A stretch of 64,000 nt of DNA from Leptospiraceae bacterium (GTDB taxonomy: Bacteria > Spirochaetota > Leptospiria > Leptospirales > Leptospiraceae): NCBI GenBank assembly GCA_022402465.1, contig JAKRSH010000024.1:1-64000 (forward strand), given 5' to 3'. Both the position numbers and the translations under genes were made by a program. Shown here one piece after another: positions 49,670 to 56,539 of the stretch. Position 1 is the first letter of the stretch; each line of letters opens with the position of its first letter. A model generated the notes under the pieces. The model was not told the DNA's origin. It did not search any database and saw nothing but the letters and a program-made list of their open reading frames with translations.

Positions 49670-50513
49670 AAATAGGAATACTCTCTGTTTCTAGGAAGTT
49701 ATAGTAGGTAAAAAGAATTTTGCATGCAAATGTAATAAACAAGCCTAAACAGAAATACACTCCCATTGGGATGGGGGTGTTGGTAATCTTTTGGTCATTT
49801 TTTCTAAAGGCTAAAGAGATTAGAACCGCAGGTATGTAGGATGCATTTAAGAAAAGCATCCACCAAGGATGACCGCATAAGAAGGCAAAGCAGGGTGCAA
49901 AAAGTACGTCTCCAAGTCCAATTCCTCTTGGATAAAAGAAATACAGTAAGACATAGAATCCACCAAATCCTAAGATCACGTAGAAATCTTCAAGGCCAGG
50001 AAATTGATTTGTTAATAAATAGTTAGCTAAAGATCCCCAGAGAAGAATCCAAATGAGATTCTCATAATCCAAAGAAAAGTGTGTAGCATCCGTTGATATG
50101 GAAATAATTAAATGACCCGTAAGTGCAAGACAAGTAAAACTTAGTAAGAAATTGTTGCTTGCCTGAAAGAGGAAAATCGCAACCAAGCCAAAAAATATTT
50201 CCCCGATAGGGTAGATCAGTGGAATGGAGTAGTCACAGTGCTTGCATTTTCCTCGAGTCAGTAGATAGCCAAGTATGGGAACTAAATAAATCGAAGGTAT
50301 ATTTTGTCCGCAATTCTCACAATGACTAGGTGTAATCAAAAGTTCTTTAAGTCTCGGTAAACCTGTATAGACTTTTCGCTTCTGAGTGTAGTAAAGATCT
50401 AATATGCGATAGCTGAGATTGAAATAAAAACTTCCAAGGCTTGCGCCTAAAACAAACAAGGGAAGGTAGAGAGCAAGTTTAGTATTGCCTTGGAGAAATA
50501 AAGAAAGATCCAT
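49662..50513 (-). CDS. Type IV prepilin peptidase (A24 family)
   Basis: A 283-residue polytopic membrane protease that cleaves and often N-methylates type IV prepilins and pseudopilins. The cytoplasmic loop carries the two zinc pairs CENCGQ and CKHCDY. The catalytic aspartates are expected in STDATHF and in GLGDVLF. About eight membrane segments are visible. The first aspartate motif is slightly unusual, because the common L-P-D after it reads L-D-Y. It overlaps the aminotransferase stop by one base. No pilin gene is in the window. Confidence 0.87.
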   Translation of the reverse strand: MDLSLFLQGNTKLALYLPLFVLGASLGSFYFNLSYRILDLYYTQKRKVYTGLPRLKELLITPSHCENCGQNIPSIYLVPILGYLLTRGKCKHCDYSIPLIYPIGEIFFGLVAIFLFQASNNFLLSFTCLALTGHLIISISTDATHFSLDYENLIWILLWGSLANYLLTNQFPGLEDFYVILGFGGFYVLLYFFYPRGIGLGDVLFAPCFAFLCGHPWWMLFLNASYIPAVLISLAFRKNDQKITNTPIPMGVYFCLGLFITFACKILFTYYNFLETESIPIYE

Positions 50514-51622
50514 TAATTTGTAAGTTTAGATAACCTTTGCAAGGCGGAGACACCCTGTTTTAATTGCTCCCAGTCACAGGCAAAAGACAATCTCACATGG
50601 CTATGGTCTTCACAGAATATATACCCTGGAACCAAAATTAATTTTTCTAATTCTACTGCCTTCTTTACAAAATCTTCATCCTGAATTGGAACCTTCAAGA
50701 AGTAATAAAAGGCTCCATCCGATTTACCTATTTCGTAATAGTTCTTCAATTCATCGAATACAAAGTCTCTTTTTTCTTTGTAGTCTTGGATATAAGAACT
50801 CATATCTGTTTGTAAGGCTGTGATACCAGCCCATTGAACGGGTGCTGGTGCACAGACTACTGTGTATTGCTGTAAGGTTGTTAGAGCCTTGGTTACATCC
50901 AAGGGACTCAAAATAGAGGATAGTCTAAGTCCTGTCATGTTATATGTTTTGGAAAATCCAGATAGCGTTATTGTCTTTTCGTAGTCAGCACCAATGGATG
51001 TAAACTTATGATCATAATCAAAGAGTTCATAGATCTCATCTGAAATCAAATAAGCACCTGTCGTCTCAGCGAGTTTTGCCAGTGCAGACAATTGTTCTTT
51101 AGATAGAATTTTACCTGTTGGATTTGAGGGTGTTGAGAAAAGTATGAGCTTTAATTTTTTGGATTCCCATTTCTTAAGATCTGAATCCTTGAAGGATTCA
51201 TGGACAGTATGTACTTTTGCCCCGTAAAAGCCAAGCATGGATGGATACATAAGAAAGTAGGGAGAAACAATTAGGCATTCGTCACCTGGATCAACGAGCG
51301 CATTGAAGAGTAAAAACAAAGAAGAACTTATGCCAGAAGTTACAAGGACTCTATCTGCTGTGGCATAGGAAATATTATTAATGTTTCGATATTTTTCTGC
51401 GATTGCTTCCCTGAGTTCTGGTATACCAGCTGTTAGTGTATAAGAAGTCTTGCCTTCATCCAGTGCTTGCTTCATTGCTTCGACTATGGGTGCAGGACAG
51501 GGAAAATGAGGCTGGCCAATGGAAAAATTGATTGGATTTTCAATACTTCTTGCAAGTTCGAAAGCCTTTCGAATGGGAGAGCTATCTATGCGTGACATTT
51601 TCTGAGAGAGTTGCATAAACAT
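50513..51622 (-). CDS. Pyridoxal-phosphate aminotransferase, class I/II
   Basis: A 369-residue aspartate/aromatic-type aminotransferase. It shows SIGQPHFPCP and TAGIPELREAIAEKY near the N-terminus, STPSNPTG (substrate loop), ISDEIYELFDY, and the PLP lysine in LSGFSKTYNMTGLRLS. The ATG at 51622 gives the longest form; ATG codons at 51616 and 51598 are also possible and none has a ribosome site. Substrate cannot be assigned. Being first in a transcript with pdxH, which makes the PLP cofactor, is a sensible but not proven link. Confidence 0.88.
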   Translation of the reverse strand: MFMQLSQKMSRIDSSPIRKAFELARSIENPINFSIGQPHFPCPAPIVEAMKQALDEGKTSYTLTAGIPELREAIAEKYRNINNISYATADRVLVTSGISSSLFLLFNALVDPGDECLIVSPYFLMYPSMLGFYGAKVHTVHESFKDSDLKKWESKKLKLILFSTPSNPTGKILSKEQLSALAKLAETTGAYLISDEIYELFDYDHKFTSIGADYEKTITLSGFSKTYNMTGLRLSSILSPLDVTKALTTLQQYTVVCAPAPVQWAGITALQTDMSSYIQDYKEKRDFVFDELKNYYEIGKSDGAFYYFLKVPIQDEDFVKKAVELEKLILVPGYIFCEDHSHVRLSFACDWEQLKQGVSALQRLSKLTN

Positions 51623-51694: not shown

Positions 51695-54600
51695 ATGAAT
51701 ACGGTTCGCGTTGCAGGACTGGATCTTCCTCTTTTCCAAGGGGGAAACCCATCACTTTTATTTCCTTCTGATCTTGTCGAAACAGATTCTACAATCAGAA
51801 ATCTACAAAATATCATCTATCCTATGTTAGAAGGAAGACCTGTACTTCTTGTTGGTGATGCTGGTGTTGGTAAAAATGCTCTTGTTTATTATATCAATTG
51901 GAAGATGCAGAAGCCAACTCTACGTTTTAGTCTAAATGAAGATACCTTGCCTGAGGATTTGATTGGATCGTATAGGGTGTTGTTAGATGGAAAGGGTTTT
52001 GAGTGGACTGATGGTATTCTGACCTCTGCTCTAAAATCTGGTTATTCTTTTGTTGCTGACGAAATGAACTTAGCGACTCCTCATATTCTCAAGAGATTTT
52101 CTTCAGTTTATGAATCCGCATTTATTGATATCTTAGAGGGATCAGGGGAACGCATTCTTGGCAATCCGGGATTCCATTTTGTAGGTACACAGAATCCATC
52201 GGAAGGTTTTGAAGGTCGTAAGCCTCTTCCTTTTGATATTACAAAACACTTTTCTGTAGTCTTCATAGATCCGCACACACCAGATGAAATACTTTTTATT
52301 CTAAGCAAATTGTATCCAGATTTGAATTCTGAGTTTCTGAGAAAAGCGATTTCCACTAGTATTCAAATTGAACTGCTTATCAAGCAAGGGGATATTGGTC
52401 GTGGAGATTTAGAAAAATACCATTTTAATATTCGTGTTCTAAAAAAGTTATGCGAAAGAGTTTTGCTTTTTGGTAAATCAGATCCTCAGGTTCAGCTGAG
52501 AGAAGTGTTGCATCTTTACTATGATCCTTTTCGTAAATCAGAAGACCGTGACAAAATTCGTCCTATACTGCAAGAACAGTGGGGACAAATTCCTTCCGAT
52601 ATCAATAGGTCCCAGAACATTGATGTGTCTTTTCACATCAAAGACGAAACTCTTTTCTGCAATGACAAGAAGATCTCTCTCTTAGATGAAAGCAAGGCTA
52701 AGTCTTTGCTTACAAGTGTTCCATTACCAAATCCTATCTTGGATTTTATGGAAAAGGTTACAACAGCTTTCCAGAACAAGGAAAACGTTCTCATCGAATT
52801 CAGAGAAGACCAAGATCCACAAGTGTATTATAAGCTTATAACGGAACTCATAGGCAACCAAGTAGAATTGGTTTCACTTTCCAAAGGAGTTCACACCTCT
52901 GATATCATAGGTGCCCTCAAGCCAATTGCTGCCTCTGAAGTGGGATGGACTGATGGTCCTCTAACAAGAGGAATACGAAAGGGAGCCATGATAGTCATAA
53001 CTGGGCTTGAATCCGCAGGTGCAGAGCTTGTAGAGAAAATGAATATGCTCACCGATGATGCCAAGTCCTTGGCACTACCTCCCGAAAGTGGAGAATCGGT
53101 TCCTATCAAATTAAAAGAAAATTCAAGAGTGATTGCTTTCAAAACTTTCCGTAGTTCTAAATCTCTTCCTACTATCTCAAGAGCCTTCCGAAATAGATTC
53201 ACTTCCATACTTTTTCCTGAGCTAGAAGATATTGACACCATTAAAGAGATCTTAGCTTTTTATCTCCCAGATGAATTCCTTCCTGAAGCTATGGCGAAAT
53301 TCCACCTTAAGGTAAAGAATCTATCACATAAGCGTACAATTGGTTCGGCAAATTTGGTTCCATACTCCTTTGGAATTTCAAACTTGCTCACATGGAAGGA
53401 TCATATCCTACATTTCAACCAACAGAATGTAAAAGATGTTGCTCTACGTGGAGGCAGGATTGCTTACTCCAACCAAGTGTCAGATACTAAGGAAAGAGCG
53501 GAACTCGAGAAGATACTCGACTTTCAATTGCAAGGCATAGAGGCTGTGAGTGAACTCTTCGAGAAGATCGAAGAGAAAAAAAAAACTTTTACTGAACCCA
53601 CCAATATAGAAAAGAAACGTTGGTGGGATCCAGAGCTTCACAAAAGGGAAGCTCTGACTGGAAAGGCTCGCAAAATCAATTCTGGTGATCCACTCAAACG
53701 AGGAATCGAAATCAATACTGCTCCTACAGGTGGCAATGAAAAAGAAGGTGCTGATGCTTGGTATGGAAAGGACACTCGTGGAAATATGGGTCAGGGTGAG
53801 CCAGCCGGTGGCGGTGGTGCTTGGGGTTATAGAACTGAAGAGCTATATAAACAATTTCTAAAGAAACGAAGACTACTTTGGGATTATAAAATGGTAGTCT
53901 CTAGAGAAGAGTTTCTTGAAATTTTTGGAAAAGAATTAGAAGAAGTTGAACTCAATCTAGAAAGACTCTTTGATCCTGAAGTTGATATAACAAGAATGTA
54001 TCGAAATGAAGGATCCAGAATTGATGCACGTAGATATATTAGTTATAAAAACGGCAAGGGAGATGGAAGAATCTTTGATAAGACCCTCATTGAGAAAGAA
54101 GAAGAGAAACTCAAGGGCGTTGAAGTCGCTTTCTTAGTCTCCAAATGCAGAAGAGTATTTAACTTTGATTATTCGGTAGCCGTACTTTCTGCACTTCTCA
54201 CCTCAGCTTATATACTGAGAGATCATGAAGTCAATTTCTCCGTTCATTCTTATTCTGATCTAAAAAATGTTAAAAACAAAATAGATATCATTCATGCAAA
54301 GAAATATGAGGACGAGTTTGACCAAATTGCTGAAGAAAGTCTATTTAATTTTTTTACCCAAGGTTGGGAAGGCGATTCCATTCCAGAGCACCAAATACTC
54401 TCCAATTTGGAAAACTTTTTTACTCCAGAAGCACAAACTAAAATCGTTGTTATACTTTCTGATTTTCGTGGACAAAGAGCCAAGGCTGATATCGAAGATG
54501 AAATTGGTGGACGAGAGACAGTCTTACTCAGAGATATGGTTCGAAAGAACGAAAGTAAAAACTATGTTTTCTTGGGAGTTGGCTTGGGATCTAGATATAT

Positions 54601-54721
54601 AGCTGAGCATATTTTCCACGATTCCATTCAGATTACCTCAGAAAATTTTTATAATATGCCGAATCTTATAGGGAGTGAGATGTCAAGATTGATTTTGACT
54701 CACCACAGCCAAAGGAACTGA
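51695..54721 (+). CDS. Midasin-like AAA-AAA-VWA fusion protein
   Basis: A 1008-residue cytoplasmic protein. Residues about 25-260 form an AAA module with Walker A GDAGVGKN (54-61), Walker [10 protein letters not shown] (119-127) and [13 protein letters not shown] (164-176). The DE-x-N-L-A and TQNP...GRK motifs resemble midasin (Rea1/MDN1). Residues about 340-530 form a second AAA-like module that keeps ISRAFRNRF but lacks a Walker A. A Gly-rich linker (about 670-715) leads to a region with [11 protein letters not shown]...GDGRIF, as in NorD/CbbO/CobT-type VWA proteins. The C-terminal VWA-like domain (about 810-1008) lacks the metal-site DxSxS (LVSKC instead). Bacterial MoxR-VWA pairs are usually separate genes that remodel or metallate target complexes. 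Here they are one chain, ahead of smpB and der. The target is unknown. Confidence 0.75.
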
Positions 54722-54722
54722 A

Positions 54723-55208
54723 ATGGCAAGCGCAGCAAAAGAAAAATCCAAACAAATAGAACCCTTAGTTAATAAGAAAGCAAGGTTCAATTTTGAATTG
54801 GGAGATGAATTCGAAGCAGGAATAGTGCTTACTGGAACGGAAGTAAAAGCCTTGCGAGAGAAGAAAGGAAATCTTACCGATTCATTTGCTAAGGTGAAAA
54901 ATGGAGAAATCTTCTTAGAGAATTTTCAAATCCCTCAGTATAAGAATAAGGGTTATGTTGCGCACAACGAACTGCGAGCTAAGAAATTACTTCTCCATAA
55001 AAAAGAAATTGTTCGTTTGGAAAGAGCTGTGAAGGAAAAAGGCGTTGTATTAATAGCCGTTAAGTGCTATTTTAAAGACAACAGAAAATTTAAAGTTATC
55101 ATCGCAATGGGTAAGCCTAAAAAATTACACGACAAGCGTGAAGATATGATGAAGAAAGAAGCTAAGCTTGATATAGAAAGAGAAATGAAAAATAGGCTCA
55201 AAAGATGA
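54723..55208 (+). CDS. smpB: SsrA-binding protein
   Basis: SmpB binds tmRNA to rescue stalled ribosomes. The 161-residue protein has [29 protein letters not shown] (first part of the OB fold), [10 protein letters not shown], and a basic C-terminal tail with YDKR-like DKRED. AAAGGA lies before the ATG, one base after the AAA-VWA stop. Its stop overlaps the der start by four bases. The tmRNA gene itself is not seen in the window. Confidence 0.95.
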
Positions 55209-56539
55209 AAAAACCACCCATAGTTACCATTCTAGGTAGACAGAATGTAGGAAAATCTACACTTTTTAATCGCATAGCTGGAAAAAAAGGTCATTCCATT
55301 ACCAAAAATATAGCAGGCGTTACAAGAGATACTCTAGAGATTTTAGTTGAAAGAGAAGAATTGATTTCACCTATTATGCTACGAGATACACCTGGTCTAG
55401 ACATTGAATCCATTGATGAGATGAGCACTTCTATCTTGGAGGTAAGCTTCCAGCATTTGAGAGAAAGCGCACTAATCATTCATGTTATTGATAAAAAAGA
55501 TATCCGAGATTATGATTATACTTTGATTCAACTTTTTCGTAAAGATGATAAACTTAAGAATACTCCTATCCTTTTCATTGCCAATAAATCTGACTCCGAT
55601 GCAGATGATGCCGACTTAGAAGAATTGTATAGGATGGGTATACAAGATCCTATTCCTGTTTCTGCCTTGGGTAAAAAAAATCTTGGATTAGTTTTTGAGA
55701 AAATAAATTTTTACCTTCCCACTAAACATTCGCATTCCTTAAATCCTGATCTTAGAATTTCTATAGCTGGTAAACCGAACTCAGGTAAATCTTCCTTGAT
55801 GAATTCTATACTGGGTTATAAGCGTTCTGTTGTTTCTGAGGTCGCTGGAACCACTCGTGATTCTTTGAATTCTTTCGTCCAATATAAGGAAAAATTAATA
55901 GAGATAACCGATACAGCTGGTATTCGTAAGAAAAGTAAGAAAGCGGAAAGTTTAGAGTTCTATTCCTACACTCGATCTCTACGAGCTATGGAAGATTCTG
56001 ATGTTGTCATATTTCTACTAGATGCAACCAAGGGTGTAGGTGAATTTGATAAGAAGATTTTTTCTTATTTAGAAAAGTCTGGCAAACCAGTTGTTATAGG
56101 TTTTAACAAATGGGATTTAGTCCAAGACAAGGATCATAAGACTTTGGATGAGTTTAAGAAGGATGTAATTTCTCGTTTTCCAGCTATGAAGGATAAACCC
56201 ATACTTACACTAAGTGCCTTAACCAGACAAAGAGTGAGCAAAATCATGGATGCTACCTTAGACATGGCCGCTAAGTCTCAACTTAAAGTAACAACCTCTG
56301 TTCTTAATAAGAAGATAAGGGAATGGTTGAGTGATGGGAAAATTGCACGTGCATCCAAGAGACCACCTAAAGTTAAATATGCGACACAAATATCATCTTC
56401 ACCTTTTCATTTAGTTTTCTTTGTGAATAGCAAAGAACTTTTTACTCCACAGGTTCTATCTTATTTTCGTAAAAAGGTAAACGAGGAATTTGAGTTAGGT
56501 GGTATTCCAGTAAAGATTGAAGTGAGGACTAATGAATGA
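55205..56539 (+). CDS. der: Ribosome-assembly GTPase Der (EngA)
   Basis: Der carries two GTPase domains in tandem and helps assemble the 50S subunit. The 444-residue protein shows G1 loops GRQNVGKST (about 9-17) and GKPNSGKSS (about 190-198), G3 DTPG and DTAG, G4 NKSD and NKWD, and a C-terminal KH-like domain with [18 protein letters not shown] overlaps link it to smpB and plsY. Confidence 0.95.

Follow-up and report, generated by a model that had tools for sequence, protein, structure and literature searches.

We found that a gene of a Leptospiraceae bacterium encodes two AAA modules, a flexible tether and a VWA domain in one chain. The protein is probably a self-contained, two-module mechanochemical remodelling machine of the midasin type, with the VWA substrate-holder fused to the motor. 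The analysed stretch of DNA (the window) comprises positions 1 to 64,000 of contig JAKRSH010000024.1. The open reading frame lies on the plus strand at 51695..54721, starts with ATG and encodes 1008 amino acids; its parts were delimited using Pfam, profile searches and a structure model. Midasin (Rea1/Mdn1) is a giant eukaryotic AAA protein that remodels pre-60S ribosomes. The bacterial MoxR-VWA pairs that resemble it, such as NorQ-NorD and CbbQ-CbbO, are encoded by separate genes. We confirmed that the AAA-AAA-tether-VWA architecture in a single chain is real and that it is unusual for a bacterium. Sequence comparison and the predicted model show that the chain has two AAA folds with lids of the midasin type and a VWA fold, that it is conserved across the class Leptospiria and that its motifs have been lost in a complementary way. 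By its anatomy, the protein should work like midasin or like a NorQD machine. It is not a midasin by membership, since it has two modules and no metal site.

The large subdomain of the first module (AAA1) occupies 51782..52270 of the plus strand (residues 30-192), and Pfam AAA_5 matches residues 49-176 at 65.1 bits, above the cut-off. On the same strand, the Walker A motif GDAGVGKN lies at 51854-51877, the Walker B motif FVADEM at 52049-52066 and sensor 1, N167, at 52193-52195. The lid, which carries sensor 2 (R247) and five predicted helices, follows at 52280..52585 (residues 196-297) and is of the midasin-lid family PF17867. Motifs were counted in 26-28 aligned family members. K60 is conserved in 26/26 and D122, E123, N167 and R247 all in 28/28; N61 and N125 are invariant too. 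Every member has Asn instead of Ser/Thr in this Walker A. AAA1 has no arginine finger: the finger position is occupied by H, N, Y or L. The AAA_5 match and the predicted AAA fold confirm the first AAA module of the earlier note. The note had called this module intact, which holds for Walker B and the sensors, but needs a caveat for Walker A with its invariant Asn.

The large subdomain of the second module (AAA2) lies at 52727..53218 on the plus strand (residues 345-508) and is recognized by AAA_5 (40.9 bits at 52835-53200, above the cut-off), by a profile match to midasin and in the model. Its nucleotide-binding motifs are lost: Walker A is absent and the Walker B positions are variable. The arginine-finger motif SRAFRNRF is retained at 53177..53200, plus strand (residues 495-502), with R499, N500 and R501 present in 28/28 members; the earlier note had already noticed this motif in a second module devoid of Walker A. 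The lid and the helix that follows it are encoded at 53231..53587, plus strand (residues 513-631), the five-helix lid proper being residues 513-611 in the model.

AAA1 thus has Walker A, Walker B and sensors without a finger, and AAA2 has a finger without the Walker motifs, from which one composite ATP site per chain is predicted. In Rea1, a module lends its finger to the ATP site of its predecessor (PMC6286127). By analogy, ATP would bind to AAA1 and be hydrolysed with the help of the AAA2 arginine finger. The site of AAA2 itself is apparently dead, and AAA1 has also lost its finger, for which that site would be the only use. The joint loss of the AAA2 site and the AAA1 finger is what would be expected for modules that alternate in a ring. 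Three chains would then close a ring of six modules with three ATP sites, provided that the modules follow this order and that the finger acts in cis. It could be proposed instead that the protein is a non-hydrolysing, nucleotide-gated scaffold, in which the VWA would change its position when ATP binds, with no turnover. The invariant Asn61 in Walker A, the dead AAA2 and the lost DxSxS motif of the VWA would suit such a scaffold. We consider it highly doubtful: the invariance of K60, D122, E123, N167, R247 and R501 would not be expected without hydrolysis, and the GKN sequence also occurs in other AAA_5 proteins.

The Gly-rich linker noticed earlier proved to be a highly conserved tether (53612..53833, plus strand; residues 640-713) that is predicted to be disordered. 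In the model the disordered region spans residues 648-717 with its edges, yet it includes many invariant positions. Since the tether is both disordered and conserved, it probably binds something, either the ring or the substrate. With a conserved flexible tether, the VWA of the remodelling machine that we favour could reach the ring and dock there, as it does in NorQD and Rea1, and then be turned or pulled.

The VWA fold itself extends over 54110..54703, plus strand (residues 806-1003), and was recognized from the model and Foldseek. The C-terminal model has a mean pLDDT of 80, and its nearest solved structures are the NorD VWA (E 1.5e-11) and the MDN1 MIDAS domain (E 1.6e-8). By sequence, Pfam VWA was matched weakly in only 1/20 members (E 0.19), and the PDB profile search gave nothing relevant. 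The checks proposed in the earlier note had different outcomes: structure prediction gave an AAA fold in the second module and a VWA fold in the C-terminal part, and the profile searches found AAA_5 in both modules but missed the VWA. The earlier claim that the DxSxS metal site is gone proved correct. The equivalent segment is SKCRR (54140..54154, plus strand; residues 816-820). It contains no Asp, the metal ligands are replaced in 26/26 members, and K817, R819 and R820 are invariant. The equivalents of the other MIDAS residues are kept in the aligned members, namely the Thr in GD(S/T) (54371..54379, plus strand; residues 893-895) and the Asp in SDFRG (54458..54472, plus strand; residues 922-926; 26/26). 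A VWA lacking one or both aspartates is known from other AAA-VWA systems (PMC7159879), and NorD, unlike the VWA described here, retains DxSxS-T-D (PMC13036017). We infer that basic residues stand in for the metal. Because Lys817, Arg819 and Arg820 replace the metal ligands, the VWA may hold its target by a salt bridge to an acidic residue and not by Mg2+.

The likeness to midasin turned out to be stronger than could be seen from the sequence alone when the earlier note was written. Midasin heads the PDB matches, its lid family is found in most members, the lids are predicted to have five helices, and the VWA fold is nearest to NorD and MDN1 MIDAS. The PDB sequence match to midasin has an E of 4.3e-77 summed over several modules, and CbbQ, NorQ and CobS are far behind. 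On midasin (6or5), the AAA1-core profile scored 79.7 bits for AAA5, 70.1 for AAA3 and 57.8 for AAA1, compared with 55.7 for CbbQ and 49 for NorQ. The AAA2 profile gave 75.2 bits for midasin AAA4 and 71.5 for AAA5 versus 35.4 for NorQ. The Pfam Midasin AAA lid (PF17867) was detected in 16/20 members (best E 3.3e-14); in the window's own protein it scores 22.1 bits, just under the cut-off of 22.7. Among 292 spirochaete genomes, 25 have PF17867 matches. Twenty-four are genomes of the class with scores above the cut-off, all in this gene, and the remaining one scores below the cut-off. In four genomes both modules of the gene match the lid model. PF17867 was silent in 14 control genomes and also in two further phyla, of which 349 and 247 genomes were scanned; such silence is no proof of absence, although the same model is positive in the spirochaete set. 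The CbbQ_C lid (PF08406) is absent from 20/20 members and present in the NorQ of loci L017 and L018 of the same class. The GvpN model TIGR02640 matches AAA1 in 20/20 members far below its equivalog cut-off of 266.8 bits (39.3 bits in the window protein). The two proteins have the AAA1 match in common, but GvpN has a single module and no VWA.

The predicted structure points the same way. The full-length AlphaFold model, built from 28 sequences (mean pLDDT 77.5, pTM 0.60), contains two AAA folds, each followed by a five-helix lid (residues 196-296 for AAA1). Dynein is described as having a five-helix small subdomain, which is also predicted for midasin, whereas the MoxR lid is displaced (PMC4047620). 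By helix count in the model, both small subdomains are predicted to be of the dynein/midasin type, without the H5-H6 displacement of MoxR. The best PDB matches in Foldseek are the rings of dynein and Rea1, typically over about 620-680 columns.

With midasin the protein shares tandem AAA modules, five-helix lids, a flexible tail and a C-terminal VWA/MIDAS fold in one chain. It differs in having two AAA modules instead of six (by Pfam and fold) and in lacking the long helical linker and the D/E-rich region. The midasin VWA has the DxSxS metal ligands, and here they are lost with only Thr/Ser and Asp kept. The dynein motor likewise joins AAA modules in tandem within a single chain, some of them catalytically dead, with five-helix lids, and it gives the top Foldseek matches. 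However, dynein has six modules and no VWA; its linker, stalk and microtubule-binding domain are absent here, and the sequence similarity is weak. The NorQ-NorD and CbbQ-CbbO systems also combine an AAA_5 ATPase with a VWA, and the NorD VWA is the nearest fold, but they consist of separate genes with one AAA module per chain and a CbbQ-type lid. The MoxR-VWA ternary conflict systems follow a similar AAA plus VWA remodelling logic, and some of their VWA domains lack aspartates; they differ in having separate components, a third conserved protein and effectors (PMC7159879), none of which was seen beside the gene.

We also calculated an AAA-core tree from eight members, the midasin modules, NorQ and MoxR. 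The midasin sequences in it were taken over from printed alignments and lack inserts, AAA5 being partial and AAA6 missing, and its results should be read with these partial rows in mind. AAA2 groups with midasin AAA2 and AAA4 at 79/77. Neither a grouping that unites AAA1 with AAA1, AAA3 and AAA5 of midasin (p-AU 0.058) nor one of AAA1 with AAA2 (0.31) was rejected. Since the best-scoring midasin modules are AAA5 and AAA3 for AAA1 and AAA4 for AAA2, and since AAA2 joins the even modules in the tree, it could be suggested that the protein keeps the two-module unit (an odd-type and an even-type AAA with a tethered VWA) that was triplicated into the midasin ring, its homotrimer being a living counterpart of the precursor. 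We regard this origin as a long shot. The opposite course, in which an ancestor of the class acquired a eukaryotic midasin laterally and reduced it, is very unlikely. A transfer would agree with the absence of midasin-type lids from the other bacteria sampled, but within the class the gene is deeply spread and diverged, its products being 39-60% identical to the window protein, the tree gives no supported nesting of both modules within midasin, and the protein lacks the metal site of the VWA and a large part of midasin.

The earlier note had assigned the gene to a ribosome/translation operon directly coupled to smpB and der. In the window, smpB (54723..55208, plus strand; Pfam SmpB) is the next gene and begins 1 base past the stop; der (EngA), a GTPase gene identified by Pfam (55205..56539, plus strand), overlaps smpB by 4 bases. 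Upstream lies a divergent aminotransferase-like gene (50513..51622, minus strand; named by sequence appearance), which is common to the window and the second family. The gene is followed by smpB at loci L010-L014, and by smpB-der in the window and at L041-L044. At L045, which belongs to the same family, smpB-der is missing. The second family has a gamma-carbonic-anhydrase-like gene downstream (named by sequence appearance), and the third family has no neighbour in common with the others. The ribosome inference rests on one lineage because smpB-der adjacency occurs only within the window's own family; we did not accept the operon as a general functional clue, and the operon role inferred earlier is not supported beyond that family. 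The earlier note had also named what would speak against it, a separate partner gene elsewhere and a gene unrelated to smpB-der. The latter was found, but no separate VWA partner is shared within 8 kb of the gene.

A bacterial ribosome-assembly factor, acting on the 50S with Der and SmpB as the functional counterpart of midasin, would agree with the midasin similarity, with its place just before smpB-der in the family of the window and with the housekeeping-like spread across the class. It is nevertheless quite unlikely. In the second and third families, and at L045, smpB-der does not adjoin the gene. The MIDAS metal site, which midasin uses on Rsa4/Ytm1, is lost, and eight well-completed genomes of the class are without the gene. 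The proposed ribosome link is weak. As the neighbours change and there is no partner gene, the target of the remodelling machine that we favour is most likely a housekeeping assembly.

The nearness of the VWA fold to NorD would also suit a machine that matures a metalloenzyme or a respiratory complex, like NorQD, CbbQO or CobST, but fused in one chain. We compared COX1 in 30 genomes of at least 90% completeness and at most 5% contamination, counting by hand the genomes with a match of E under 1e-130. High-scoring COX1 was present in 20/22 genomes with the gene versus 3/8 without it, a weak co-occurrence, as the threshold was set after the data had been seen and related genomes are not independent. 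Such a maturation role is unlikely: three gene-less genomes have high-scoring COX1, the comparison is affected by kinship and the post hoc threshold, no metalloenzyme gene was found as a conserved neighbour, and the lid is of the midasin type and not of the CbbQ type.

Counted the other way, high-scoring COX1 is missing in 5/8 genomes without the gene versus 2/22 with it, an observation that is likewise post hoc, confounded by kinship and opposed by three counterexamples. At L017:80-2211 and L018:47-2208, a NorQ-type ATPase gene directly follows a NorB-like gene of the COX1 family. This is the usual separate MoxR-type arrangement, and these genomes also hold the fused protein.

The gene is widely kept in a whole bacterial class and is undescribed as far as our search reached. 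In a profile search, 36/48 genomes of the class Leptospiria carry it, which is more than chance; matches were obtained in 41/48, five of which have only other AAA proteins, and 7/48 have none. The window's family and a second one from its order have full-length relatives, as do two more families of the class. The tether-VWA part matches 34/292 spirochaete genomes, all of the class, and gave no match in viral contigs. A scan of genome contigs gave 29 loci named Leptospiraceae, Leptospirales, Turneriella or other spirochaete bins, none titled Leptospira. In this one scan the family was not found outside the class, where there were only AAA-core matches of 28-37% identity. We found no paper naming a bacterial midasin; a long review that names midasin nine times (PMC7203096) may contain an earlier mention. 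A bacterial chain of 1008 residues would be a tractable model of force transfer from an AAA ring to a VWA and could be used to ask whether a VWA needs a metal to hold its target. The chain also bears on the origin of the tandem architecture of dynein and midasin.

Several loci call for separate comment. The bin of L061 (RFJE01000391.1) is labelled Candidatus Hydrogenedentota and carries the gene; this label is probably wrong, because the contig coordinates are the same as in the class genome G163. The gene is split into two open reading frames between AAA1 and AAA2 at L039:444-3534 and between AAA2 and the tether at L068:395-3614. We did not accept these splits as evidence of natural fission: assembly frameshifts are possible, and we discounted the splits since the genome of L039 (G181) also has a broken COX1. 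The Aquificota matches of about 935 amino acids were rejected as relatives; they represent another protein, whose single AAA_5 domain is C-terminal. They form a conserved family (L071-L099, e.g., L075:6045-8852) whose Walker A is likewise GDAGVGKN, and the N-terminal part, with no Pfam match above the cut-off, looks propeller-like by eye.
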